This document shows, piece by piece, positions 7,253-20,485 of a stretch of 64,000 nucleotides of DNA; within the stretch, counting starts at the first letter, position 1; every line of letters begins with the position of its first letter. The stretch is taken from the NCBI GenBank assembly GCA_025462725.1, contig JAOAPE010000003.1, forward strand, positions 62,001 to 126,000, given 5' to 3'. Both the position numbers and the translations under genes were made by a program. Source of the DNA: Terriglobales bacterium (GTDB lineage Bacteria > Acidobacteriota > Terriglobia > Terriglobales > Acidobacteriaceae). Under the pieces are notes generated by a model that was given only the letters and a program-made list of their open reading frames with translations, did not search any database and was not told the DNA's origin.

Positions 7253-9466
7253 ATGGCCGTAACCAAGACTGAGCCGAAAAAGCCCGCTGTAGCCGCGCCG
7301 AATGATACTGCGCCCGTCAAGACCGAGAAGACTTATCAGGGGCTCACGAAGAAGCAGATCATTGAGTTTTATCGGCTGATGTATCTCTCGCGGCGATTGG
7401 ACGACCGCGAGATCATGCTCAAGCGCCAGCAGAAGATCTATTTCCAGATCTCAGGCGCGGGACACGAAGCACTCCTTGTTGCCGCAGGAATGGCGCTGCG
7501 TTCCGGATACGACTGGTTCTATCCTTATTATCGCGATCGCGCGTTGTGCCTGGCCATTGGCATGACTCCTGAAGAGCAGTTGCTAGAAGCGGTCGGCGCG
7601 GAAGCTGATCCAAACTCTGGCGGTCGGCAGATGCCTTCCCACTGGGGACACAAAAAGCTGAACATCGTCACGCAGTCGTCTCCGACGGGAACTCAGTTCC
7701 TGCAAGCGGTGGGATGCGCGGAAGCGGGCAGATATTTCTCGAAGTATCCGGAGGCCGCGAGCAAGCCTGAGGGCACGAAGGATTACCGCCAGTTCAAAGA
7801 TGTGCAGTTCCACGGCGATGAAGTCGTTTACGTCTCCACTGGCGACGGCACAACCAGCCAGGGCGAGTTCTGGGAGGCGATGAACTCGGCCGCGAATCTT
7901 AAGCTGCCGGTTCTATTCGTCTGCGAAGACAACGAATATGCGATCTCCGTTCCTGTCGAAGTAAATACCGCAGGCGGAAATATCTCCAAGCTCGTCGCAA
8001 ATTTCCCGAACTTCTTCTTTGCCGAAATCGATGGCACGGATCCCGTCGAGAGCTACGGCGCGATGGTGAAAGCTGTCGAGCATTGCCGCAGCGGCAAAGG
8101 CCCGGCCTTTGTGCACGGACACGTCATCCGCCCCTATTCGCACTCTCTCTCAGACGACGAAAAGCTCTATCGCCCAGACTCCGAGCGCCAGAAGGACGCC
8201 CAACGCGATCCCATCACGCGCACGCAGATGTTCCTGATTCGCGAAAACATTCTCGACGAAGCTGGAATCAACAAACTTGAGAAGTCCGTTGAAGAAGAGA
8301 TTCAGCAAGCGACCGACCGCGCTCTGCTCGCAGCGCTGCCCTCCACAGAAAAGGCAGCGATTCTGAAAAATATCTACTCGCCTGACCTCGATCCAACAGG
8401 CTCGACGTTCGCAACGGAGCCTGCAACAGAAGGCGCGGACAAAACCATGGCCGACCTCATCAACGCCTGTCTCAAAGACGAGATGAAGCGGGATGAGCGC
8501 ATCGTCATGTTCGGTGAGGACGTTGCCGATTGCAGCCGTGAAGAATATCTGAAGCAGAAGCAGGTCAAAGGTAAGGGCGGCGTCTTCAAACTCACGGCCG
8601 GATTGCAAGCCGAGTACGGACAAGACCGCGTCTTCAATTCTCCACTTGCCGAGGCGAACATCGTTGGCCGCGCAACCGGAATGGCCACCCGCGGGTTGAA
8701 GCCCGTTGTCGAGATTCAATTTTTCGATTACATCTGGCCTGCAATGCAGCAGCTTCGCAATGAGCTTCCGCTGATGCGATGGCGCTCGAACGGGAATTTC
8801 TCGTCCCCTGCGGTGGTGCGAGTCGCCATCGGCGGATATCTCACCGGTGGCGCGATCTACCACTCGCAATGCGGAGAGAGCATCTTCACGCACACTCCGG
8901 GAATGCGAGTGATCTTTCCATCAAACGCGCTGGATGCAAACGGCCTGCTTCGCACTGCCATCCGCTGCGATGATCCCGTTCTGTTCCTTGAGCATAAGCG
9001 GTTGTATCGCGAAACCTTCGGTCGCGCTCCGTATCCTGGTCCGGATTACATGATTCCATTCGGCAAAGCGAAGACTGTCCGCGAGGGAACTGACATGACC
9101 GTGATCACTTACGGAGCCGTCGTCCCGCGCGCGTTGCAAGCCGCGCAGAAGATGGAGCGCGAGCACGGTGTCAGCGTCGAGCTGATCGACTTGCGCAGCT
9201 TGAGTCCGTATGACTGGGAAGCGATTGCGGAATCCGTGCGCAAGACGAATCGCTGCATCGTTGCTCACGAAGACACTCTCAGTTGGGGATACGGCTCCGA
9301 GATCGCCGCGCGTATCGCTGACGAACTCTTCCATGACCTCGATGCTCCGGTGAAACGCGTTGCCGCCATGGACACCTTCGTCGCCTATCAACCGGCGCTC
9401 GAGGATGTGATTCTTCCGCAGTCAAGCCACTTGTTCGCGGCCATGCAAGAGATGGCGGAGTTCTAA
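7253..9466 (+). CDS. Branched-chain-type 2-oxoacid dehydrogenase E1, alpha and beta subunits fused
   Basis: 737 residues from the ATG at 7253, preceded by GAGGAG. The reading frame continues upstream to 7025 but has no ribosome site there. Residues about 25-390 are E1alpha, with the thiamine-diphosphate motif starting at GDGTTSQG and ending in CEDNEYA, and the surrounding E1alpha signature EFWEAMNSA. Residues about 405-737 are E1beta ([47 protein letters not shown]). E1 decarboxylates a 2-oxoacid and passes the acyl group to lipoyl-E2. Fused forms occur in several phyla. No E2 or E3 gene lies nearby, so the complex is assembled from other loci. A separate split E1 pair is encoded at 28.6-30.7 kb. 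Confidence 0.93.
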
Positions 9467-9472
9467 GCAGCA

Positions 9473-9811
9473 ATGCGCATGTGGATGGTGAACCCGCGCA
9501 AGATGTGCAACCAGCACTTGCTTGGCGAACACGTCGAAATACATATGCTGGTTGGAACGCTGGTCCGCAAGAAATCCATTGCAGGATTTGTCGAGAACAA
9601 GTTGATCGAGGTTCACAGCATTCGCAAGCGCCATTCCGAACTGGTCAAAGAGATGCAGCGCCGCGGGATGCAGCACCAATCTCCGTTGCCTGCATTTCGG
9701 TCGCGCACATTGGGCAAGGTAAACCGCAAAACCAATCTCGCGGAACTTGCGCGTCGATGCGAACGTTGTAAGGCGGCCCAACGGCCTCGCGCGAAGTCAG
9801 CGCTTCAGTAA
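9473..9811 (+). CDS. Pyrimidine-dimer DNA glycosylase / endonuclease V-like protein
   Basis: 112 residues, starting six bases after the E1 stop. The N-terminal half resembles T4 endonuclease V (Pyr_excise family): the segment CNQHLLGEHVEIH aligns with the T4 helix containing QHL-x2-E-x2-E, placing Glu22 at the position of catalytic Glu23 in T4. Endonuclease V cuts at cyclobutane pyrimidine dimers by forming an imine through its N-terminal alpha-amine. Here residue 2 is Arg, so the initiator Met is probably retained and would supply that amine, which is unusual. The C-terminal part is Arg-rich and overlaps a convergent gene by 15 bases. Homology is from memory of the motif; activity is inferred. 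Confidence 0.7.
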   Translation: MRMWMVNPRKMCNQHLLGEHVEIHMLVGTLVRKKSIAGFVENKLIEVHSIRKRHSELVKEMQRRGMQHQSPLPAFRSRTLGKVNRKTNLAELARRCERCKAAQRPRAKSALQ

Positions 9812-10369
9812 TCCTCCGCCAACCTTCTTTTCGAGCGCGTTTGCTTCGTCTGCATAGTCGCGAGCTGTGATCAGGTTCACGGTCGCGAAGTCCTTGATTC
9901 GCGGGTCCTGTGCTTTTTCAATCGCTCCTTGCAACAGCGTAACTACTTCCTGGGTTCCGTCCACTTCAGTGCCAGCATACGCCGTGTCGAAATCTCCGCC
10001 GGACTTCGACTGCAGATTGGAAACGGTTTCGTTGTCAGCGTTGCCATTGGGAACACTGACTGATTTCGATTGCGCCAGTTTCTGCAAGTTGTTCAGCATG
10101 GTTGTGTAATCTTTTAGCTCGCGCTCTGCATGCGCCTTCACATCCGGACTCTGCGCTTTTGACTGAGCCAGCTTTGCCGCTTCAATCTCCGTAGTCAGGG
10201 CTGCGGCCGTTCGCTGAAAAAAGGTGTTCTCATCCGTAAATGACTGCGCCGCTTTCTCCACTTGCTTTGGAGGCACATCCTTGGGATTCTTTTCCCGGGC
10301 AATGTGCTGTTTACAACCCAATTGCCAACTCAGTGCAAACGCAAGCGACACAATCATCACGGACTTCAT
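9797..10369 (-). CDS. DUF4142-type lipoprotein
   Basis: 190 residues with an N-terminal signal ending in WQLGCK, a lipobox-like Cys at about residue 19, so the protein is probably lipid-anchored. The rest is helical with the DUF4142 layout: a ferritin-like helix pair, a middle AHAERELKDYTTMLNNLQ and a closing TLLQGAIEKAQDPRIKDFA, where the phrase on 'distance-dependent' helices repeats. The function of DUF4142 is unknown; members are often stress-related. A good ribosome site (AGGAAAGGAA) precedes the ATG. It lies 19 bases after a second DUF4142 gene, so the two form a small operon. Confidence 0.78.
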   Translation of the reverse strand: MKSVMIVSLAFALSWQLGCKQHIAREKNPKDVPPKQVEKAAQSFTDENTFFQRTAAALTTEIEAAKLAQSKAQSPDVKAHAERELKDYTTMLNNLQKLAQSKSVSVPNGNADNETVSNLQSKSGGDFDTAYAGTEVDGTQEVVTLLQGAIEKAQDPRIKDFATVNLITARDYADEANALEKKVGGGLLKR

Positions 10370-10388
10370 GAGAGTTCCTTTCCTCGCG

Positions 10389-10997
10389 CTATTGCCCGCG
10401 ACTACCCACTGCCTTCAGCGCAGATTGTGCAAGCTGCAAGTGCTCCTGAAGGATAGGCAGAGTTGTGGTCGCAAAGTTCTTCACGTCAGGATCCTGTCCT
10501 TGACTGGCTTCTTTCTGAAATTCCGCGATGTCCTTCTGGTGGTCTTGCACCATGTTCTGCATGTAAGAGCGGTCAAATTGCTGTCCTTGCGCTTGCGAGA
10601 GTTGCTGCTTCAGGCTCTGCGCGTCCTCCGGAAGATCTGTTGGAAGCGTGACGCCTTTCTGTTGCGCGATCTGCTGCAGCCGGTTGTCAATGTCAGTGTG
10701 GTCAGTGACCATTTTTTGTCCAAACTGTTTCACAACGGAGTTTGCGCCTTGCTGATTGGCCATGCTGCCGAGCTCGACTTCAGCTTTGCCGCCTTTCGCG
10801 GCGTTCATGATGAAGCTGCGATCCTGGTCGCTCAGCTGGCTGTTGCTGGCGGATTGCGAGTTGTCGCCGCCGCCCATTCCGGTTGCGGCTTGGGAATCGC
10901 TGCTGCTGCTGTTCCTTGATTCGCTGCCTTTGGTCTTGCTGCATCCGACAGAGATGGCAAGAACCGCGACTAGAAATAGTGCAAAGATGTTCTTCAT
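10389..10997 (-). CDS. DUF4142 lipoprotein
   Basis: 202 residues. The signal peptide ends in AISVGCS with the lipid-modified Cys near residue 19, followed by a Ser/Gly/Asn-rich linker to about residue 55 and then the DUF4142 helical domain. Recognisable stretches are FIMNAAKGGKAEVELGSMA, FGQKMVTDHTDIDNRLQ and MVQDHQKDIAEFQKEAS. This is a better match to the family consensus than its neighbour. The ATG is preceded by AAGGGAG. It is probably periplasmic and bound to a membrane. No function is established. Confidence 0.85.
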   Translation of the reverse strand: MKNIFALFLVAVLAISVGCSKTKGSESRNSSSSDSQAATGMGGGDNSQSASNSQLSDQDRSFIMNAAKGGKAEVELGSMANQQGANSVVKQFGQKMVTDHTDIDNRLQQIAQQKGVTLPTDLPEDAQSLKQQLSQAQGQQFDRSYMQNMVQDHQKDIAEFQKEASQGQDPDVKNFATTTLPILQEHLQLAQSALKAVGSRGQ

Positions 10998-11348
10998 GGA
11001 GTTGCTCCCTTTGGGTTAGGTTTCTAAAAGGTACGATGTTTGTTGCCGCAATCTGGATGGGCAGCAGAATGTGCCACTCGCGATTTTTAGGAATGGAACA
11101 AAGGCCACCCCGGAGAAAAGGTGGCCTTTGTTTCGGCATCGAAGGAGGCTAGAACCTGTGAAATTCTTCCGCCGTTTTGCCATTTATGGCCGTGAACTCT
11201 GCCTCAGACGCATCGTCCACAACCCGTATTCGCCATTTTTCTTAAAGCTTAGAAAGAGGCTAAAAGATTCAGGATGGTCTTTCCAAGCGTCAAGAGACGC
11301 TAAGTTCCTGGAATTCGAGAGTAGATGATTTAGCGCAGAGCCCCGGGT
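10998..11348. other. Intergenic region holding an orphan hairpin
   Basis: 351 bases between the start of the DUF4142 operon and the end of the saccharopine-dehydrogenase-like gene, both on the minus strand. It contains the ribosome site of the DUF4142 gene and a perfect 12-bp hairpin at 11098-11131. No convincing reading frame is seen; the longest is an 85-codon frame without a ribosome site. Confidence 0.6.
11098..11131. terminator. Perfect hairpin, probable bidirectional terminator
   Basis: ACAAAGGCCACC (11098-11109) pairs fully with GGTGGCCTTTGT (11120-11131) around a 10-base loop. T-rich flanks exist on both strands but are short. On the minus strand it lies about 220 bases past the stop of the gene ending at 11349; on the plus strand no gene precedes it. 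Confidence 0.6.
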
Positions 11349-12503
11349 TTACCGCAAGGCGTAGTCAATGCGGATTCCGCGCTTCGACATCTCATTCAGG
11401 AAATCATTTGCGGGAACGTCCGTCTCCTGCATGATGCCGCCGCGCTTTTTAATGGTGCCGCGCGCCATCATCAGCACCACGATGGACGCAGGCCAAGCGG
11501 TGGTGCGCATCATCGCCGTCATTTTTGCTTTCTCGTCGTAGTGGTCAACCATGTTGAATGCAGCTACGTGTCCGTCTGTGTGCGCTTCAATCCGCATGAT
11601 GCAAACATCAGGGGCGTCGCTGGTGAGCTTGTTCAAAAATATCTGCGATGTGACTTCGCGCGGAGTGACCTCTGTCTTTCCCAGCTTCATCTTCTCGCTG
11701 GAGAAATACCCGAGGTCATAGAGCGAGCGGATCATCGCGAAGTGCGAAGGATACCGCAGCGTCTTTTCGAAACATTCGCCTACGCGTCCCTTGAATGTCT
11801 CCGGCATCGTGGACGTTCCGCCCGAAGTATGGAAAGCCACCATCGGATCGAATCCGCCCATCTGAAAGTCTTCCGCTTCGGTAAGCGGTTCGATTTCAGT
11901 GATCTTTCCGTTGCGCAGAACTTTCGCGGGCTCAACAAATTCGTTGATGAGTCCGTTCACTGAAAAGACCAGGTGATAGAAGAACGGAGGCTGCGGATCT
12001 TCCGGCAATCCGCCGACATAAAGTTTCAGGGCATCCACTTTGCCGTTGTTGCCGGCCATGCGGCGAAAGAGTTCTCCCGCGAGTATTGAGGCCATGCCGG
12101 GTGAGAGTCCGCAATCGGGCGCCAGCGCCACGCCGCGCTTCGCCGCTTGCTTTGACATTGCATACGTCTTGCGGACGACCGTGTTGTTTCCGCCCAGGTC
12201 AGCGAAATGGCACTTGGCTTCGATCGCCGCTTTCGCCAGTCCCACGTTGAAGAAGTAGGGAACCGCGGAGAGGACGGCGGCGTGTCCGCGCATGAGCTTG
12301 CCGGCAGCTTTGTAATTTGCGGCGTCGAGGCGAACGGCGCGGACCTTCTTGTTGCCATTCAGTTTGTTGACGCGGGCGGCAGCGGATTCGGCGAGCTTGC
12401 CATCGGCGTCGGCCAGGGTCACGGATTCCACATCACCGGCGCGCGCCATATCATACGCGGCCGCCGACCCCATCATGCCTGCACCAATCACAAGTAATTT
12501 CAC
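11349..12503 (-). CDS. Saccharopine dehydrogenase-family NAD(P)-binding oxidoreductase
   Basis: 384 residues. The N-terminal Rossmann fold starts at residue 1 with VIGAGMMGSAAAYD, and the first 130 residues include LSAVPYFFNVGLAKAAIE and CHFADLGGNN, typical of saccharopine-dehydrogenase-like and lysine-6-dehydrogenase proteins. The C-terminal part (PGMASILAGELFRRM and the long beta sheet with MVAFHTSGGTSTMPE) is the substrate domain. Family members oxidise or reduce amino-acid adducts such as saccharopine or lysine; the substrate is not determined. No lysine pathway gene is adjacent, and lysA is 23 kb away. It stands alone on its strand. Confidence 0.85.
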   Translation of the reverse strand: MKLLVIGAGMMGSAAAYDMARAGDVESVTLADADGKLAESAAARVNKLNGNKKVRAVRLDAANYKAAGKLMRGHAAVLSAVPYFFNVGLAKAAIEAKCHFADLGGNNTVVRKTYAMSKQAAKRGVALAPDCGLSPGMASILAGELFRRMAGNNGKVDALKLYVGGLPEDPQPPFFYHLVFSVNGLINEFVEPAKVLRNGKITEIEPLTEAEDFQMGGFDPMVAFHTSGGTSTMPETFKGRVGECFEKTLRYPSHFAMIRSLYDLGYFSSEKMKLGKTEVTPREVTSQIFLNKLTSDAPDVCIMRIEAHTDGHVAAFNMVDHYDEKAKMTAMMRTTAWPASIVVLMMARGTIKKRGGIMQETDVPANDFLNEMSKRGIRIDYALR

Positions 12504-12789
12504 CGGACCTACCCCTCCCCATGTACTTTTTCAAATCTTGAGAATCAATGACTGGATAGGATACAGCATCGGTTCAGCCACGCCGGGGTGGCGCTCGCAA
12601 CTGGAAACGTGCAATGTAAAACTGACTTTGTGCTTGTCATGCCGAGCGCAGCGAGGAATCTGCACTTGGTTTCACTGAGAGAGCCGAGAGCAGGGTTGTT
12701 GATGCCCTGACCGCGCCTGCCCATGCTCCTACTAGAAAAGAAGAAACTGGTTTCAAAGTCCGAAGTACGCCGCCCCTCCCGCCTTGGTC
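12504..12789. other. Intergenic region with a dispersed-repeat fragment
   Basis: 286 bases without a credible gene. It holds GTCATGCCGAGCGCAGCGAG followed by GAATCTGC at 12636-12663, which resembles dispersed intergenic repeats I recall from Acidobacteriota and other soil bacteria. A related inverted copy is at 18157-18193. The region borders the AT-richer accessory patch. Confidence 0.5.
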
Positions 12790-14169
12790 TTAAGCCTTAA
12801 GTCGCCAGCGAGAGGCGGAACCCTTCAACTCGGGAACAGGCTCAATTTCACCTTGCTGCTGGAGTCGAATAAAAACATTTTTCATCGAATTTTCGGATCT
12901 GATCCCTGTTAGATCGCGTGCTTCCTTGTTTCTGATGCTCGGGTTCTTTTGTAAATATTTCAGAACAATCTCTTCTGGGTTCCCGAGAGGAGTGTGTGGG
13001 ATCGTAACAACGACATAAGAGCCCTCTACGGATATTTCCGGATCTTTAAGTTTCCACTCCTTCATCTTTTGGAAAGCAGTGTTTAGACCCTCCCCCATGT
13101 CTCGGTTGGGTGGATTCTTGTAGCGTGCCAATGTTCGAACTAGCTTTGGATTGCGCGAAAATCTTGCGTCCAAAATGTTCTGAACAGTTATATATCCTGG
13201 AAGTCTGCCCGGGCTGCGTACTTCAATTCTATTGTCGAACACATAAATGTGAATGTGGTCTGAGATTGAATAATCTCTATGAATAACAGCATTGGTTACG
13301 ATTTCTTGAATCGCTTCCGGCGGGTACTCCACTGGTCGCATTCCTTCCATCGTCCAAATAGTCGTTGCAGACATTATTTCCTTCACCTTCGAAACACTCT
13401 GTGAAATTACGTCATACGCAGGGCCTTCGATCGTAAATGTCTCTTTCAGGTGATCTCTTTCAGCGTCGTCCTCTCTCGTCTCATAACGTGCCACCTTAAC
13501 GGCACATTGTTTGGGCATGACAGCTGAGGGGTTACAAGCAAATAGAAGCAGTCCAGCGACGGTTGGTTCCCAATCTCTGACATCCACTAGATATTGGTTA
13601 ACAACAAAATCTAGTGGGTCGGTTTTTGGAGAGTAGTCTTGTAAAAAGGATCTAACTTCCTCAGAATCAACGATATCTTCAATCCTAGCCTTGCTCACTT
13701 TCTCGTCCTCAAACGAACGTTGTCCTTTGGCGTAGGTGAGATCCATAATCTCTTGAGCTGAAAGCGGTAAGGACTGAGCGGAAACGCGCTGGTAAACCTT
13801 GCCATCCGGCGTTTCATGTACAAACGAATCTTTCTCAATTGCCAAGTGCAGAACGTATCCTGGTAGGCCGACACACACTAAAAAAGTTGCCGTGGTGGTG
13901 CAACTGGGCTGAATATCCCGAAGTGCTTGGAAAAAGCCATTAAACTCTTCGATATCAGAAGCGCCACGCCAGCGATCAATACCAACCGCTGCCTCTTTGT
14001 CATCTGCAATCCCAATCACCAATTCGCCACTATCCGCGTTTGCAAAAGCACAGATGTGACGTAGCAGCTTCGCCGGAGCAATTTGCAGTGACTTGCGATC
14101 AAAGAAATGATCTTCTGGTCGTTCGCAAAACTTGATCGCGTCTTCCATGGAAATTGGTTGGATAATCAT
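12790..14169 (-). CDS. AlbA_2 (Schlafen-like) and HATPase_c_4 domain protein with C-terminal winged helix
   Basis: 459 residues from the ATG at 14169; an in-frame TTG at 14178 is also possible and neither has a clear ribosome site. Residues about 10-145 match the AlbA_2 (Slfn AlbA-like, putative DNA-binding) domain: EDHFFDRKSLQI, ICAFANADSGELVIGIADD. Residues about 290-400 are the divergent ATP-binding domain (YPPEAIQEIVTNAVIHRDYS, RIEVRSPGRLPG, RNPKL, GEGLNTAF). The last 65 residues look like a winged helix (LQKNPSIRNKEARDLTG). Such proteins are annotated as transcriptional regulators or appear in defence neighbourhoods. It lies 39 bases after an unknown gene in visibly AT-richer DNA, suggesting horizontal origin. 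Confidence 0.85.
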   Translation of the reverse strand: MIIQPISMEDAIKFCERPEDHFFDRKSLQIAPAKLLRHICAFANADSGELVIGIADDKEAAVGIDRWRGASDIEEFNGFFQALRDIQPSCTTTATFLVCVGLPGYVLHLAIEKDSFVHETPDGKVYQRVSAQSLPLSAQEIMDLTYAKGQRSFEDEKVSKARIEDIVDSEEVRSFLQDYSPKTDPLDFVVNQYLVDVRDWEPTVAGLLLFACNPSAVMPKQCAVKVARYETREDDAERDHLKETFTIEGPAYDVISQSVSKVKEIMSATTIWTMEGMRPVEYPPEAIQEIVTNAVIHRDYSISDHIHIYVFDNRIEVRSPGRLPGYITVQNILDARFSRNPKLVRTLARYKNPPNRDMGEGLNTAFQKMKEWKLKDPEISVEGSYVVVTIPHTPLGNPEEIVLKYLQKNPSIRNKEARDLTGIRSENSMKNVFIRLQQQGEIEPVPELKGSASRWRLKA

Positions 14170-14208
14170 CAGTGGCAATCACTTTTTGTCATAAATTTGA
14201 GTGCAGAA

Positions 14209-15498
14209 CTAGTTCTCTCCGATAACGATTTTCTTGATTTCTTCCATATCGAGGTGGTCTTTGATTTCGAATGCGCTCGGGTTCAACGAAAGGATGTCGT
14301 CAAATAGGATTATCGTTCTCAATATGCAGCGGCGGGCCTCAGCCCGATATACCTCGGCGTGAACTCCCTTGTTAATGAGTGCTTCCAATTTTTCTAACTG
14401 ATCCCGAAGGGATGCAGTGCTTACACATATTAAGTCGATGTTCGTGTTGCTCTGTCGGGACTTGTCTGCGAATGCTAAAAGTCGATTCCGGTAATGGGTT
14501 TTCCCCGACTTGAAAACATTTGTGGGCTCCCCTTCAATGGGTGGAAAAATGCAGTCAGTCACATATTCGAGGACTCTTCTACAGGACGCACTCACTTGGG
14601 CGAATTGCTCATCTGTTTCGGCACCTTCGAAAGTCTGAAGGGTGGCCCACAACTTTGTACCAAATTGGGGGGCCGTGTCTCCTAGTCGTGTGACTACATC
14701 ATCGGCAATGAACGCAAGTAAGCCACCGGAGCGTCTCTTCCAGTCTGCAATTCTTTGCGCATGCTCAAACCCGTGGTACTTATCGAATATGCTGAACTTG
14801 CCATTCAAGCTTTCATAAGCGATGTCTCTGTACCCTGCATCTCTCAGTTCTTCTTCAGCGGCTACGTCTAGGTAATCTTCTTCATCAAGGTCAAACCCAT
14901 CATGAAAGATGCTGGCCTTGTTCCCAATAAGCCGAAACGTGGGAATTAGCGAATTGGAGTATAAGACCCAATGAGCTGGCGTTGCGTCATCCACTTCCAA
15001 TGCACCAAGGTAGAAGCCTTTTGGAGCCAATCGATTATGCAAAAACTGCGCAGAACGCATGTCGATGCTTTCCAAACAAATCACATATACATCACCGTAT
15101 ACGAGAGTTTCTAATTTGTTGGGTTTCAGTCTCGACCAGACCGTATTCTCGGGTGAGAGCAACGAGCCAACGAACTTCTTAAACTTCTTTTGATCGAATT
15201 TACGTAATTCGCCGTCCCTTGTAGTCTTAGCCTTTTTGTAAGAATGATATTTTAGGAGTAGTCCTCCAATAAAAACCTTCGTTGAAGCTGGGCTGTTATT
15301 TTCCAAAATGGCTTTAAATACGGCTTTACGAAAAGGGCCAGACGATCCCTTGAAGGGTTTCCAGCTTTCGTCGAAGTGAAAGGCAATCTTCATGTTTTCG
15401 GTCTTTTGCGCATCAACATGATAGAGGAACCTTGCGCCGCCTCTTAAAGTATTCGGCGTTGTTACGAAAATGGAACACGCAATTATCTGACGTTTCAT
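14209..15498 (-). CDS. Unrecognised protein, possible partner of the AlbA_2 protein
   Basis: Up to 429 residues from the ATG at 15498. A second ATG at 15393 would give 394 residues and a more natural N-terminus (MKIAFHFDESWKPFKG). Neither has a good ribosome site. I do not recognise the N-terminal 300 residues; no signal peptide or membrane segment is seen, so it should be soluble. The C-terminal 90 residues are helical, and the segment ALINKGVHAEVYRAEARRC resembles a short motif I recall from HEPN-like tails of abortive-infection and other hypothetical proteins. Base composition is AT-rich (hand count of line 15241-15300: 22 G/C of 60) against about 55-62% in two neighbouring lines. Function unknown. 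Confidence 0.75.
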   Translation of the reverse strand: MKRQIIACSIFVTTPNTLRGGARFLYHVDAQKTENMKIAFHFDESWKPFKGSSGPFRKAVFKAILENNSPASTKVFIGGLLLKYHSYKKAKTTRDGELRKFDQKKFKKFVGSLLSPENTVWSRLKPNKLETLVYGDVYVICLESIDMRSAQFLHNRLAPKGFYLGALEVDDATPAHWVLYSNSLIPTFRLIGNKASIFHDGFDLDEEDYLDVAAEEELRDAGYRDIAYESLNGKFSIFDKYHGFEHAQRIADWKRRSGGLLAFIADDVVTRLGDTAPQFGTKLWATLQTFEGAETDEQFAQVSASCRRVLEYVTDCIFPPIEGEPTNVFKSGKTHYRNRLLAFADKSRQSNTNIDLICVSTASLRDQLEKLEALINKGVHAEVYRAEARRCILRTIILFDDILSLNPSAFEIKDHLDMEEIKKIVIGEN

Positions 15499-15564
15499 CT
15501 GTTTGGGTTGTAGCTCAGTTAATCCAATTTGGCATAGTTAATAAAGTACTGTTATCATTCAGCT

Positions 15565-15831
15565 ATGTCCTTCCGCACCTGCATTCACCTCAAAGTCAAC
15601 GGACACCAATGCCAATCCCCGGCGCTGCGTAATTCCACTCACTGCCATTTCCACCACCAGCATCGCCGACATAAACTTAAACGCCGCGACATCAACATCA
15701 CCGCCCTCGACTCCAACCGCGCCCGCCTCGACGCACTGCACAAAGTCATGAACGCCGTCATTTCGCATCGCATCGATCCCGAGATCGGCCGCACTCTTCT
15801 GTATGGCATTGCCACATCGTTTCACCAATAG
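15565..15831 (+). CDS. Small Cys/His-rich protein, putative zinc-binding, lineage-specific
   Basis: 88 residues. The N-terminal 30 residues carry CIHLKVNGHQCQSPALRNS and then CHFHHQHRRH, a Cys-x9-Cys...Cys-x-His pattern that looks like a small zinc-binding knuckle. I recall similar short proteins repeated in acidobacterial genomes, annotated as hypothetical. The C-terminal 45 residues are a simple helix-rich tail. There is no transport signal. The gene is divergent from the accessory two-gene patch and 67 bases away from it. Function not known; nucleic-acid binding is possible from the basic, zinc-finger-like head. Confidence 0.7.
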   Translation: MSFRTCIHLKVNGHQCQSPALRNSTHCHFHHQHRRHKLKRRDINITALDSNRARLDALHKVMNAVISHRIDPEIGRTLLYGIATSFHQ

Positions 15832-15917
15832 AATGAGGAATTTAGCCCAAGGTGCAATCGAATCTATACTTTGCAGACCGAAATCTTGTAAGTGAGGCAA
15901 AGAAAGTACCTTACAAA

Positions 15918-15959
15918 GGGGGAGGGGTGGTTGGGGAGGGTATATGTATGAACCAGTAA
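15918..15959 (+). repeat. G-rich repeat unit 1 ending in AACCAGTAA
   Basis: The block contains four G-runs of three or more bases (GGGGGAGGGGTGGTTGGGG, then AGGG), enough to form a G-quadruplex in principle. It is followed by TATATGTATG and AACCAGTAA. A second unit lies 115 bases downstream. Confidence 0.6.
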
Positions 15960-16032
15960 ACAGGGGAACTGAATGACGTTCATTCCGCGATGCACTTTCC
16001 TCCTAAAGTCGTCATTCTGGCTATCTTAGCTA

Positions 16033-16066
16033 GGGGGGAGGGGGTGGGGGAGGTATCAACCAGTAA
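16033..16066 (+). repeat. G-rich repeat unit 2 ending in AACCAGTAA
   Basis: The block GGGGGGAGGGGGTGGGGGAGG is followed by TATC and AACCAGTAA. It shares the G-rich body and the exact nine-base end with unit 1, but has a shorter spacer. Confidence 0.6.
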
Positions 16067-16171
16067 TCTAGAGCAAGCATTCACAGGAGTTGGGCGCCCT
16101 CTGCGACACCCCGCATCTCATTCTTGAATCCATGCGGTGATGTCGGACGCAAGATAGCTTGGGGGCAGTCC

Positions 16172-16555
16172 ATGCAAGAGGAAACAATCCGTACAGCTCT
16201 GAAAGCGCACTGGCAGGCGTCAGCAGCCGGTGATGCAAATGCGGAACACGATATTTATGATGACGATGCCATTTGTGATTATCCCCAGTCGGGCGAGCGA
16301 ATCCTTGGGCGGAGTAATTTGCAGGCGTTGCGGAGTCATCATCCCGGCAAGCCGTCCGTCTTCGAGGTCAAACGGATTGTGGGAAGCGGGGATCTCTGGA
16401 TCACGGAATACACGATCACGTACCAAGGGCAGCTGGCATACACGGTGAGTATCATGGAGTTTCGCAACGGCAAGGTCGTCCACGAGACTCAGTATTTCGG
16501 CGACCCCTTTGCGGCGCCAGCCTGGCGGAAGCAATGGGTTCAGCAGACCGCGTGA
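16172..16555 (+). CDS. SnoaL/NTF2-like protein
   Basis: 127 residues from the ATG at 16172. The frame is open to 16124 but the shorter form starts at the first helix (MQEETIRTALKAHWQASAAGD) typical of the fold. The NTF2-like cone can be followed: helix, then AEHDIYDDDAICDYPQSGERI, and the closing strands YTVSIMEFRNGKVVHETQYFGDPF. Members are small polyketide cyclases, isomerases or unknown ligand-binding proteins; no specific reaction can be assigned. It stands alone, convergent with the oxidoreductase gene 31 bases downstream. Confidence 0.8.
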   Translation: MQEETIRTALKAHWQASAAGDANAEHDIYDDDAICDYPQSGERILGRSNLQALRSHHPGKPSVFEVKRIVGSGDLWITEYTITYQGQLAYTVSIMEFRNGKVVHETQYFGDPFAAPAWRKQWVQQTA

Positions 16556-16586
16556 CGCGGAACGGCTGATGGCCGTGAATCAGAAG

Positions 16587-17576
16587 TCAGATCGTGACCA
16601 CAATCTTGCCCACTTGCGCATTCGACTCGAGATACTTGTAGGCTTCCGCCGTTTGCGCGAATGGAAATGTTTTCGCGATCTTTAGCTGAAAGCTTCCGTC
16701 CGCTAAATGGTCGTAGACATATTTTTTCCCTGCGGCGAGCTTTTCAGGATTTGCGCTGATCTCGAACAGAGTGTATCCACGAATGGTCAGCCCCTTGCCA
16801 AGCACCGAGAACAGCGGAAATGGTGCGGGTTGCAATGAAAGAGCTCCGTACTGGAAGATGATTCCGCCGGGAGAAGCCGCCTCGGCCAGCTTTTCGAGAA
16901 ATGGACCCGAGACAGGATCAAAGATTACCCGCGCGCCTTTGCCGCCGGTAATCTCCTTCACGCGGGCGACGAAGTCTTCCTCTTCAGTGGCGATCACGTG
17001 GTTGGCACCGAGCGAACGCAACTCAGCTTTCTTATTGCCCTTGCGCGTTGTCGCGATGGAGATAGCACCTTCAGCCTTGGCAATCTCAAGAGCGGCGATT
17101 CCGACACTGCTCGATGCTGCGGTGATGACAACGAAATCGCCTTTCGTCAGATGCGCGATGGGAATCAAGGCCCCATATGCAGTTAAGTACTGCATCCAGA
17201 TAGCTGCGCCTTGGGCCGGTGAAAGGTTCGGCGGATATTCACCTAGAGAGGAAGCCGGAGCTATTACTTCTTCACCGAGCATGCCATAGGTACTCATGGA
17301 GAAAGATGGGATTGTTGCCACCGATTTGCCTATCCAGCTCTTGTCGACTTCGGGACCAACGGCTTCCACCACGCCGGCTGCTTCATATCCAAGGCCGGAA
17401 GGAAACTTCGGTGATTCAAGGTACTGTCCGCGCATGAACATTGATTCCGCGCGATTCAATCCCATCGCCCGAACCTTTAAGCGCACCTCGCCTTTACCCG
17501 GCTGTTTTGTGGGCTCTTCTTCAATGCGCAAAACTTCTGGTCCGCCCAACTCATGAAAACGAACTATCTTCGGCAT
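16587..17576 (-). CDS. MDR-family zinc-independent quinone oxidoreductase-like protein
   Basis: 329 residues, the normal length for NADPH:quinone reductase-like medium-chain dehydrogenases. The N-terminal GroES-like part (GKGEVRLKVRAMGLNRAE, GLGYEAAGVVEAVG) is followed by the nucleotide-binding fold with VVITAASSSVGIAALEIAKAEGA. The catalytic zinc Cys of true alcohol dehydrogenases is absent (Asn in GLNRAE), fitting the quinone-reductase branch. It probably reduces quinones, enals or similar carbonyls with NAD(P)H in the cytoplasm. A GAGG-type ribosome site precedes the ATG. No operon partner is evident. Confidence 0.88.
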   Translation of the reverse strand: MPKIVRFHELGGPEVLRIEEEPTKQPGKGEVRLKVRAMGLNRAESMFMRGQYLESPKFPSGLGYEAAGVVEAVGPEVDKSWIGKSVATIPSFSMSTYGMLGEEVIAPASSLGEYPPNLSPAQGAAIWMQYLTAYGALIPIAHLTKGDFVVITAASSSVGIAALEIAKAEGAISIATTRKGNKKAELRSLGANHVIATEEEDFVARVKEITGGKGARVIFDPVSGPFLEKLAEAASPGGIIFQYGALSLQPAPFPLFSVLGKGLTIRGYTLFEISANPEKLAAGKKYVYDHLADGSFQLKIAKTFPFAQTAEAYKYLESNAQVGKIVVTI

Positions 17577-17646
17577 AGCTCTTACCTCGCGTTGTTTGGA
17601 TTGTCAGGCTGCAATAGAGGTCGCAATTATTCCGCCTACACGGGAT

Positions 17647-18021
17647 TCAGCCCCGGCCGCGGAACTTGATGATCGTGCGGCGATCGCGTTTTGATGGGCG
17701 TCCTGCAGGAAGAGCTTCGAATTGGTTGAAGGCCTTGCGCTCGGCGGCGGCTTTCAGGCGCTGCTCGCGGCTGTCATCGGTCTCTTTGTATAGCGTTTGC
17801 GCGACAGACGCCGGGCCGCGGACTTCGCTGAGCAGCAGGACTTCGACGAGGAAGTCGCCGGCGTCGTTTGTGATCTTCAGCATGTCGCCAATGCGGACCT
17901 CGCGCGCGGGCTTGGCGGGTTGTCCGTTGGATTGGATACGGCCGAGATCGCAAGACTTCGAGGCGAGAGAGCGCGTCTTGAAGAATCGCGCGGCCCAGAG
18001 CCATTTGTCGATGCGGGTCAT
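17647..18021 (-). CDS. S4-domain RNA-binding protein, Hsp15-like
   Basis: 124 residues from the ATG at 18021. A longer frame to 18102 exists but adds only repeat-like sequence. The S4 fold starts at the N-terminus (MTRIDKWLWAARFFKTRSLA) and continues with IQSNGQPAKPAREVRIGD; the family sequence RIDKWLWAARFFKTRS is nearly identical to the Hsp15 consensus. The basic C-terminal tail (RPSKRDRRTIIKFRGRG) is also characteristic. Hsp15 binds stalled 50S subunits that carry nascent-chain tRNA and helps recycle them. It is a single gene. Confidence 0.9.
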   Translation of the reverse strand: MTRIDKWLWAARFFKTRSLASKSCDLGRIQSNGQPAKPAREVRIGDMLKITNDAGDFLVEVLLLSEVRGPASVAQTLYKETDDSREQRLKAAAERKAFNQFEALPAGRPSKRDRRTIIKFRGRG

Positions 18022-18156
18022 GTGGGGCAATTGTAATTTGTGATTGGCGATTTGTGATTGAAAGGCAAAAGCCTTCACCGCAAAGGACGCGAAGGATCGC
18101 AAAGGAAAAGCGGGATATCGATTCTGGGTCGATGCAAGCAGATTGCAGAGTCGTAG

Positions 18157-18193
18157 GGATCCTTCGACTCCGCTACGGTTCGCTCAGGATGAC
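18157..18193 (-). repeat. Dispersed intergenic repeat-like element
   Basis: On the minus strand it reads GTCATCCTGAGCGAACCGTA and then GCGGAGTCGAAGGATCC. The form, a GTCATCCTGAGCG head and a CGAAGGATC end, is one I recall from intergenic repeats of many soil bacteria. A variant is at 12636-12663 in the opposite sense. Confidence 0.45.
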
Positions 18194-18212
18194 AACTTAG
18201 GCGGAATTCAAC

Positions 18213-18242
18213 TTCAATGTGGAGCCGCAACTGCGGTAGAAT
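18213..18242 (+). promoter_or_regulatory. Candidate promoter of the DHS-like gene
   Basis: TTCAAT at 18213-18218 and TAGAAT at 18237-18242, spaced 18 bases. The -10 is close to consensus and the -35 is weak. Transcription would start near 18250, giving a leader of about 105 bases. Confidence 0.35.
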
Positions 18243-18252
18243 ATAGGCAGCC

Positions 18253-18318
18253 ACGGCGGGGTTCGATGGCGGAAGGCAATGCCTACCGTAGACCCCGATA
18301 GCCGGGGCCTCTCTCGTT
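18253..18318 (+). promoter_or_regulatory. Structured 5' leader, class not identified
   Basis: The leader can fold into nested helices: GGGGT with ACCCC enclosing GCGGAAGGC-AAT-GCCTACCGT (one A-A mismatch and one G-T pair), followed by CCCCG-ATAG-CCGGGG. It does not match a riboswitch class I know (compared by eye with guanidine-I, SAM-II, preQ1-II and fluoride). It could be a cis-regulatory element or simple mRNA structure. Confidence 0.35.
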
Positions 18319-18354
18319 TATGGGCTCCCGGACTTCAACCTTGTGGAGACCCCG

Positions 18355-19428
18355 ATGCAAAAGACCGACCTGTTACACACCACCGTAGACCACTACGACA
18401 TTAAAGCCGTCAATGTTGTTCCTATGATCGACATGATGGAGAAGACCGCTTTTCAGGCGCGCAATCTGGCGCGCGCGGCGAAGATCGTTGACGAGATGGT
18501 CAACGATAAAGATTGCGGCATCATCCTGACGCTTGCCGGCAGCCTGATCTCGGCCGGACAGAAGGGCATCATTCTGGACATGATGCGCTCGAACATGGTG
18601 GATTCCATCGTGTCCACGGGCGCGAACATTGTTGACCAGGATTTCTTTGAGGCGCTGGGATACCGGCACTATCAGGGTTCTCCGTTTGCCTCCGACAATG
18701 ACCTGCGCGAGCGGCACATAGACCGCATTTACGACACTTACATCAACGAAGATGAGCTGCGCGTTTGCGACGATACGATCCGCGAGATCGCGGAAGCGCT
18801 TGATCCGCGCGCGTACTCCAGTCGCGAGTTCATCATGGAGATGGGACGATACCTCGACAAGAAATTTCCGAAGGCGGACAGCATTGTGCTGGAAGCGTAT
18901 CGCCGAGGGATTCCGATATTTTGTCCGGCGTTCTCGGATTGCTCCGCGGGATTTGGACTGGTGTTCCACCAGGTTGCGCGGCAGCAGGCAGGGAAGCCGT
19001 ATGTGGCGATCGATTCAGTTGCGGATTTCCGCGAACTAACGCAGATCAAGATCGAGTCCGGCGTAACGGGGTTGATCATGCTGGGCGGCGGCGTGCCGAA
19101 GAATTTTGTGCAAGACATTGTGGTGTCAGCGGAGTTCCTGGGATACGAAGCTGACATGCACAAGTACGCTGTGCAGCTGACTGTCGCCGATGAGCGCGAC
19201 GGCGCGCTGTCAGGCTCGACGCTGAAGGAAGCCAACTCCTGGGGCAAAGTGGACCTGGCGAAAGAGCAGATGGTATTTGGGGAAGCCACAGTCACGTTTC
19301 CACTGATCGCAGGCTATGCGTATCACAAGGGATCGTGGAAGAACCGTAAGGCGAGAAACTTTGCGGAGATATTCGCGAAGCCCTCTACGCTGAAAGCTGA
19401 AGGGTATTCGGAGCTGGCAGCGAAGTAG
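18355..19428 (+). CDS. Deoxyhypusine synthase-family protein
   Basis: 357 residues from the ATG at 18355, preceded by GGAG six bases away. A GTG at 18343 is in frame but overlaps that ribosome site. The protein is similar in size to human DHS (369) and keeps key features: AGSLISAGQKG, PIFCPAFSDCSAGFG, the NAD-site Gly-rich loop IMLGGGVPKNF and, near the end, ANSWGKV with the Trp-Gly-Lys that in human DHS (Trp327, Lys329) holds the catalytic Lys forming the enzyme-imine. Bacteria lack eIF5A, so bacterial DHS-like enzymes probably act in spermidine or homospermidine metabolism or an unknown modification. A GC-rich leader precedes it and a strong terminator follows. Confidence 0.9.
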   Translation: MQKTDLLHTTVDHYDIKAVNVVPMIDMMEKTAFQARNLARAAKIVDEMVNDKDCGIILTLAGSLISAGQKGIILDMMRSNMVDSIVSTGANIVDQDFFEALGYRHYQGSPFASDNDLRERHIDRIYDTYINEDELRVCDDTIREIAEALDPRAYSSREFIMEMGRYLDKKFPKADSIVLEAYRRGIPIFCPAFSDCSAGFGLVFHQVARQQAGKPYVAIDSVADFRELTQIKIESGVTGLIMLGGGVPKNFVQDIVVSAEFLGYEADMHKYAVQLTVADERDGALSGSTLKEANSWGKVDLAKEQMVFGEATVTFPLIAGYAYHKGSWKNRKARNFAEIFAKPSTLKAEGYSELAAK

Positions 19429-19535
19429 GAAGGCAGCAATTAGCTGTTAGCACTTAGCATTCAGATGTGAGTCGATGTAGATTCCACGTTAGCTTTGCGA
19501 ACGTGGGGCACTGTCGTTAGTTTGTAGCTGAAAAC

Positions 19536-19560
19536 GCCTCCCTACTGGGAGGCTTTCTTA
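19536..19560 (+). terminator. Intrinsic terminator of the DHS-like gene
   Basis: GCCTCCC (19536-19542) pairs perfectly with GGGAGGC (19547-19553) around TACT, followed by TTTCTTA. It lies 107 bases past the stop and immediately before the convergent hydrolase gene, so it may serve both. Confidence 0.85.
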
Positions 19561-19561
19561 T

Positions 19562-20485
19562 TTACAAGCGTTTCTGACTGAACAGTCTCAACAGCCGCGT
19601 CTCAAATTCCTGCGGGCTGGCTTGCCAAGCTCCGCAATGCGCGGCGCGGGGAACAAGCCATAGGTCTGTTCTTGGGTTGGCGTTGTGGATGGCTTTGGAA
19701 TTCCGCGGCCAGATATTTACGTCCTCAACTCCGTGGATGAGGAGCACTGGCGTATTCGATCCACTCACAGCGTGTTCCGGTGAGACCTGATTCAAATTGA
19801 GGCTGTATCGCAGGCGCGCATAGAGGATTCCGATCTCGATAGCAGGGCGGAAGATGGTTTTCGCGATCCAAGGTCGAGACTGGAGCATTCCGCTGACGCG
19901 ATCATAGGCACCATCGCGAAAGGTTGCGAAGGATGACTCGGCGGCGACGGCGCAGAATCGGCTCTCACTTGCCAAGGACTGCAGAATGATCGCTGCACCC
20001 ATGGATTCGCCGAAGCCATAGACGCAATGTGGCGGATGAGTCTGGTAGATCCAATCGACCCATTGGTGGATGTCGCCGCCCTCGCGCAGACCGTAGCTGG
20101 CAATTTGTCCATCGCTTTCGCCGTGGTCGCGCATGTCCGGGAGAAGGACGCTGTATCCGTGCTTGAGCAGTAACTCGGCGTATCCGGCGACTCCGAGGCG
20201 ATTGTCTGTGACGCCGTGTAGAAGGATGGCGGCGTCATGATTGGGTTCGGCGGGTTGCAAGTACCAGGCGCGGAGAATGGTACCGTCAGGGGTGCGAATG
20301 CTGACTTCGTCGAGCGAACTGTGCAGTGCCGCAGCGCGTTGCAATGCCACAGTTCTGTATTCCTGGGTGATGGCATGTTTGGGAAGCTTGAGGCAAAACT
20401 CTGTCAGAGCAATCCCGCTGACAAAAGATGCCAGAAGGTACAGCGAAAGAACTGAGTATGCGAACAGCCGCAGCTTTCTCTTCAC
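19562..20485 (-). CDS. Membrane-anchored alpha/beta hydrolase
   Basis: 307 residues from a GTG at 20485 with a clear AAGGAT ribosome site. Longer readings to 20575 lack one. The N-terminus has positive residues and one hydrophobic segment (about residues 6-26), so it is anchored or exported. The catalytic triad is visible: nucleophile Ser in GFGESMG, Asp in HGVEDVN and His in RAAHCG. The oxyanion-loop HGVTDNR and the DMRDHGESDG stretch place it in the BAAT/YfhR-like serine hydrolase group. Substrate unknown. It is convergent to the DHS-like gene. Confidence 0.85.
   Translation of the reverse strand: MKRKLRLFAYSVLSLYLLASFVSGIALTEFCLKLPKHAITQEYRTVALQRAAALHSSLDEVSIRTPDGTILRAWYLQPAEPNHDAAILLHGVTDNRLGVAGYAELLLKHGYSVLLPDMRDHGESDGQIASYGLREGGDIHQWVDWIYQTHPPHCVYGFGESMGAAIILQSLASESRFCAVAAESSFATFRDGAYDRVSGMLQSRPWIAKTIFRPAIEIGILYARLRYSLNLNQVSPEHAVSGSNTPVLLIHGVEDVNIWPRNSKAIHNANPRTDLWLVPRAAHCGAWQASPQEFETRLLRLFSQKRL

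Follow-up and report, generated by a model that had tools for sequence, protein, structure and literature searches.

Among the described systems closest to the locus analysed here are bacterial Schlafen RNases linked to BREX, which the account in PMC12839542 presents as proteins that join a Schlafen domain to a minimal histidine kinase and a winged helix-turn-helix (wHTH), and for which it proposes a role as RNase effectors in an antiviral context. The mammalian proteins SLFN11, SLFN13 and SLFN14 carry N-terminal RNase domains, and rat SLFN13 is described as cutting tRNA by means of E205, E210 and D248, all in one lobe of the protein (PMC5862951). The c2405 family of HEPN domains, as characterised in PMC3710099, is found fused to AbiTii and, in a few cases, to a helix-hairpin-helix; it has kept the histidine of its motif and lost the arginine. 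Finally, the interval between gpA and gpQ in P2-like phages is, according to PMC9122126, a hotspot of anti-phage genes and the home of old and tin.

We analysed two neighbouring genes, A and B, within a window of 64,000 nucleotides (the whole stretch of DNA that was studied) from a Terriglobales bacterium (Table 1). Gene A has the same three domains as the BREX-linked Schlafens, in the same order, and is predicted to act likewise as an RNase effector in an antiviral context. It differs from them in its second acidic position, which is D and not E, in its close viral relatives, which lack a B-type partner, and in its surroundings, as the four flanking ORFs tested by Pfam are not BREX genes. Gene A is a further member of this already known Schlafen-GHKL-wHTH kind. 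Gene B resembles the c2405 domains in the presence of H and the absence of R in its C-terminal domain, and differs from them by having another N-terminal domain in the place of AbiTii. Our preferred reading, to which we give a probability of about 0.6, is that the small patch was acquired and that its two genes are each of a single-gene antiviral type and mobile on their own, perhaps transcribed together here but not obligate partners.

Table 1. Features of the patch and of its flank on the side of gene A (positions in the window; residue numbers of gene A, here and in the text, count from the TTG start)
Feature	Position	Strand	Basis or remark
AT-rich patch, both genes inside	about 12750..15550		G+C drop in 300-base steps; 400-kb background
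Saccharopine-dehydrogenase-like gene	12503-11349		flank of the patch, A side
Gene A, SLFN_AlbA_2 + HATPase_c_4 (GHKL) + winged helix, 459 aa	12790..14169	-	Pfam, PHROG 12156, AF2 model, fold matches
SLFN_AlbA_2 domain of A	13762..14115	-	PF04326, 49.3 bits (cut-off 25.3)
HATPase_c_4 (GHKL) domain of A	13000..13257	-	PF13749, 56.8 bits (cut-off 26)
Winged-helix domain of A, C-terminal	12793..12981	-	fold matches, residues 399-462
Gene B, unannotated N-terminal domain + C-terminal c2405-like (HEPN) domain, 394 aa	14209..15393	-	start by relatives
N-terminal domain of B, about 225 aa	14719..15393	-	no family match; low-confidence model
C-terminal domain of B, NKGVH motif without the HEPN arginine	14278..14721	-	alignment A5, profile matches, c2405 (PMC3710099)

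Composition and genomic setting of the patch

A preliminary description of this DNA placed the two genes in a segment richer in AT than its flanks, on the basis of hand counts of 29, 22, 33 and 37 G+C in lines of 60 bases. These counts were exact on recount, and the comparison with a larger part of the chromosome points the same way. With a G+C content of 0.455, the patch has the lowest value of all 2709-base segments in the 400 kb that we sampled from the 496,972-base contig of this 4.33-Mb genome, where such segments have a mean of 0.548 and a standard deviation of 0.0144. The next separate minimum stands at 0.501, which leaves the patch below the rest of the sample. The G+C content at third codon positions is 0.446 in gene A and 0.50 in gene B, against a mean of 0.638 (SD 0.048) in 118 mechanically found ORFs of 300-600 aa from the same 400 kb. 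Codon usage is less striking: the distance from the sample mean puts A sixth among the 118, whereas B falls outside the eight most distant. The two genes are co-oriented, and the gap of 39 bases given in the preliminary description holds if A starts at ATG 14169, the start that we adopted because the alignment with relatives suggests it; from TTG 14178 the protein has 462 aa and the gap is 30 bases.

On the side of B, the patch is flanked by a small ORF, a SnoaL-like ORF and a zinc-type dehydrogenase. We saw no phage or mobile genes adjoining the patch (four flanking ORFs were searched by Pfam and the remainder by eye), the Rfam scan of positions 9000-20000 and the tRNA scan returned nothing, and the promoter and terminator scans were at chance level. 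Five related genomes, two of them of the same genus, were compared with the locus, and all retain the flanking saccharopine-type gene. The two same-genus genomes (G603 and G605) share the arrangement long dehydrogenase, two small genes, saccharopine-type gene, at protein identities of 93%, 49-65% and 84-86%, respectively. A and B are absent from the stretches fetched from both, and also from those fetched from three more distant relatives (G125, G157 and G141), and the genes beyond the patch were not found in the stretches fetched from related genomes. Since the order of the flank is kept in fetched stretches that lack A and B, and the genes of the far side do not appear in those stretches, the patch sits at a synteny break. 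The low G+C and the absence of A and B from the fetched stretches of the five related genomes indicate that it was acquired.

The small ORF that adjoins the patch (15565-15831, plus strand) has a Cys/His-rich start. In both same-genus genomes (L099 and L100), homologues of it (39-40%) precede the saccharopine-type gene by about 115 bases, on the other relative strand, and a second copy is absent from the 400 kb sampled. Near the same edge, TACTGGTT[CG]ATAC occurs twice on the minus strand (15946-15958 and 16053-16065, 107 bases apart), each copy being followed by C-rich runs. This pattern, which was built from these two copies, has no third match in the window when one mismatch is allowed, and a related stretch is found elsewhere on the contig. 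Further away, positions 18143-18195 hold a dispersed repeat of 33-55 bases, which has five further copies, all partial, within the sampled 400 kb, and others in two same-genus genomes.

Gene A and its phage-borne relatives

The assignment of A to the AlbA_2/HATPase proteins, made at first from the sequence alone, was borne out by Pfam, where the SLFN_AlbA_2 and HATPase_c_4 domains both score above their cut-offs, and A matches PHROG 12156 with an E-value of 7.9e-81. The AlphaFold model of A, built from 26 sequences, has a mean pLDDT of 89. Its 120-150 N-terminal residues match the C-lobe of SLFN11, SLFN13 and SLFN14 (Z of 9.7-9.8 and rmsd of 3.1-4.3 over 112-123 residues), and the E-values of Foldseek for A go down to 6.7e-7 (SLFN12). 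Residues 399-462 match the winged helices of MarR, ArsR and Z-alpha (Z of about 9-10 over about 60 residues); A has both GHKL, by Pfam, and a C-terminal winged helix, by fold matches. The closest solved structure is that of DIP2311, an uncharacterised protein from Corynebacterium diphtheriae (PDB 3lmm; Z of 22 and rmsd of 7.0 over 275 residues), and A is 19% identical to it. With the RNase domains of SLFN11, SLFN13 and SLFN14, A shares one lobe, the one that holds their three-carboxylate site; unlike them, it is single-lobed and also carries the ATPase and the winged helix, and its role as an RNase is putative. Some long pAgos bear a Schlafen domain, as stated in PMC6299218. We rejected A as a pAgo since the PADLOC match covers only positions 47-433 of the 1121 of the pAgo model and Pfam finds no PIWI domain.

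The acidic and lysine positions of the Schlafen domain of A are E22, D27, D59 and K29. The spacing of E22 and D27 is that of the first two carboxylates of SLFN13, the second of which is E where A has D, and D59 lies roughly where the third would be expected. Among 31 close relatives (the protein of the window, three from plasmids, that of G504 and 26 viral ones), E22 and K29 are kept in all, D27 is kept in 30 and replaced by E in one, and position 59 is D or E in 30. The other members of the family that we aligned (n=30, including two outlying viral loci) have E22 in 27 cases and a gap in three, and position 27 is E in 22 of them. A conserved stretch, E292xxxN296A..H300RDY, directly precedes the Pfam match to HATPase_c_4: E292, N296 and H300 of the ATPase are invariant in the 31 close relatives, and the other 30 sequences keep them in 29, 30 and 30 cases, respectively.

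Two scans gave 28 viral loci with relatives of A, of which 26 are 37-55% identical over most of the protein, the others being a partial match (L130, 42%) and a distant one (L131, 31%). Among viral contigs, plasmids, phages and 396 genomes of the phylum, the three nearest relatives (51-55%) are viral, and the next are on a plasmid of Vibrio chagasii (48%) and on other viral contigs. Sites were assigned in 12 of the 28 loci from the PHROGs labels of ten neighbouring genes, complemented by similarity searches with a few of these genes and of the repressors as queries. Six relatives lie between the genes for a P2-type gpA (replication) and gpQ (portal) (L121 and L124-L128), and three more lie within about 1.6 kb of gpQ, with no gpA opposite in the stretch examined (L105, L129 and L130). 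Another three follow a CI-like repressor, identified by PHROGs in L107, by similarity to L107 in L106 and by eye in L108. On inspection, the listed neighbours included no other obvious recurrent partner. The main text of the paper on the P2 hotspot (PMC9122126) does not contain the words AlbA, RecG, HATPase or Schlafen.

From where these relatives sit, we infer a probable defence role. We have here a specific bacterial Schlafen subfamily that is phage-borne without a B-type partner and is placed in a published defence hotspot, and its members are therefore obvious candidates for study as single genes. It would also link the antiviral Schlafens of animals to the competition between phages.

Domains and distribution of gene B

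The long ORF of gene B opens at 15498 and would encode 429 aa. Only two full-length relatives were found, in metagenome-assembled genomes of Lutibacter (L020, 51%) and Desulfovirgula (L021, 28%), and since both start at the residue that matches the internal ATG 15393, we took B to be the shorter protein. Its first 225 residues have no convincing match in Pfam, PADLOC, NCBIfam or PHROGs. The structural model, which was built from three sequences and has a pLDDT of 53, suggests that this N-terminal domain may be alpha/beta, and the C-terminal domain appears helical at this low confidence. With the same model, Foldseek gave no match at E <= 0.001, and the VIA-align rows, mostly rhodopsins and other helical bundles with no HEPN entry among them, were uninformative. 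Sequence profiles gave no convincing solved relative of B.

Counterparts of the last 150 residues of B are present in proteins of Streptomyces, Acinetobacter, Alteromonas, Rhizobium and others, from plasmids as well as genomes. The tail of B had been called abortive-infection-like, and rightly so, as some of these counterparts stand directly behind AbiTii: Pfam assigns the front halves of L003, L006 and L014 to AbiTii. In L005 a helix-hairpin-helix follows the B-type domain; these are the two kinds of fusion described for c2405. The histidine of the motif is invariant in the 15 rows of alignment A5. It is not preceded by an R in B itself, whereas L003 and the second domain of L009 do have an arginine there, in Rx5H spacing. 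The alignment leaves out L021 and the other domain of L009, which is nearly identical to L008 and keeps the H. The copy in L021 is divergent (23 bits) and seems to lack the histidine motif. When compared by hhalign with 14 HEPN domains of DUF4145, the B domain gave an E-value of 0.017 and a probability of 2.7%, against an E-value of 0.068 in the reversed control. The HEPN assignment therefore rests on the published c2405 family and the features shared with it, and to judge by these the C-terminal domain of B fits the c2405 family.

We rejected B as an AbiTii protein, as it matches neither PF18864 nor the AbiTii model of PADLOC and shares with AbiTii only the neighbouring C-terminal domain. A Rhizobium match (95% coverage, E of 8e-3) was rejected as a B-type protein, having a good C-terminal profile match and a front that is AbiTii-like by eye. 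On a Rhizobium etli plasmid (L051), the neighbourhood of a protein with the B-type C-terminal domain includes large proteins and two genes annotated as HEPN, and may be a defence island.

B is rare. No other genome among 249 of the order or 396 of the phylum yielded it at full length; its C-terminal domain turned up elsewhere in the order set only in G211, and in the phylum set only in G269 and G476. We also scanned 84,980 genomes with B by exact short peptide patterns, a method that finds close relatives only. Viral contigs and phages gave no relative of B, nor did plasmids searched with the L021 protein, and in 296 genomes of the Lutibacter phylum the only relative was that of Lutibacter itself. 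Our literature search found no description of B or of the A-B pair. As far as sequence comparison can tell, B represents a new combination of domains built on a HEPN-type family. The HEPN-type domain associated with AbiTii is modular, with an unannotated N-terminal partner in this genome and in those of Lutibacter and Desulfovirgula.

Pairing of the two genes and competing readings

The preliminary description suggested that A and B together form an undescribed module. They could be a single dedicated defence system, with one protein as the sensor and the other as the effector, and their common orientation, their distance of 39 bases and their shared foreign composition would favour this. The co-occurrence of the two families argues against it. 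We searched the ORFs of 132 sequences with two profiles, one of whole B and one of its C-terminal domain, and neither gave a match in any of 60 loci with relatives of A, of which 29 are from the phylum (about 1.5 kb per side) and 3 and 28 from plasmids and viral contigs, respectively (up to 6 kb per side), some of them ending at contig ends. The phylum loci derive from 121 genomes with matches to A among 396; loci were obtained for 30, one of which is that of the window. From the side of B, where the test rests on two full-length relatives, neither locus has an A-type ORF (flanks of 8-10 kb each in Lutibacter, and of 1.5 and 10 kb in Desulfovirgula).

There is partial counter-evidence. Two of the five Streptomyces plasmid proteins with the C-terminal domain of B (L004 and L007-L010) adjoin an AlbA_2 protein by Pfam, the remaining three loci being judged from annotation only. 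Yet these AlbA_2 proteins have an architecture unlike that of A, are found on differing sides of their neighbour (downstream in L004, upstream in L010) and do not match the profile of the A subfamily at an E-value of 1e-8. In Lutibacter, B and the one A-family match of the genome share a 46-kb contig; the match is about 11 kb away from B, among what look by eye like type I restriction genes. The proximity in Streptomyces and Lutibacter may be due to a loose clustering of defence genes or to a looser functional tie. With the pair found in 0/60 and 0/2 loci, we take A and B to be independent genes that are neighbours here, not a conserved module, and a dedicated two-gene system seems improbable. 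The composition, the AlbA_2/HATPase assignment and the abortive-infection-like tail of the preliminary interpretation have stood, and its two-gene module has not.

Alternatively, A could be mainly a transcription regulator, and the patch a regulatory or neutral cargo with no part in defence. The winged helix at the C-terminus of A would suit such a role, and some records of Gordonia and Mycobacterium phages annotate relatives at 28-32% identity as helix-turn-helix proteins or DNA helicases; the older annotation of A-type proteins is COG2865-type, or 'RecG-like'. The conserved acidic positions of the Schlafen domain, the match of the fold to the RNase lobe and the presence of relatives in the hotspot described for P2-like phages make this unlikely. 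The order and close spacing of the genes might also recall a toxin-antitoxin-like pair, in which B would be a HEPN-type toxin and A, through its winged helix, the regulator or antidote, and HEPN domains are often toxins, as PMC3710099 reports. But neither the 60 loci with A relatives nor those of the two B relatives hold both families, A is large and has a putative effector domain of its own, and the domain of B lacks the catalytic arginine; we hold such a pair to be very improbable.

Our preferred reading, two separately mobile antiviral-type genes in one acquired patch, is favoured by the match of the A model to the lobe with the RNase triad, the conservation of the acidic positions and the carriage of relatives by phages. 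Counting against it are the D at position 27, where 22 of the 30 distant members have E, the missing HEPN arginine of B and the two of five Streptomyces relatives that adjoin an AlbA_2 protein. If this reading is right, the ATPase and winged helix of A would sense infection, through nucleic acid or the nucleotide state, and free the Schlafen domain to cut tRNA or other RNA and bring translation to a stop. The N-terminal domain of B would sense a phage product, and its HEPN-like domain would be the effector or, as the usual arginine is missing, a non-cleaving RNA-binding module. A doubtful extension is that B founds a rare, undescribed single-gene antiviral family, where a new sensor replaces AbiTii before an arginine-less HEPN, and that it was captured together with a phage-type Schlafen as a two-layer defence. 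If true, two different RNA-acting effectors would share one short transcription unit.

Distant relatives of A also occur on plasmids of Klebsiella and Pseudomonas, where many of the matches overlie annotations of an RNA-binding domain protein and a TrlF family AAA-like ATPase; this pairing is a recurrent neighbour of a different kind.
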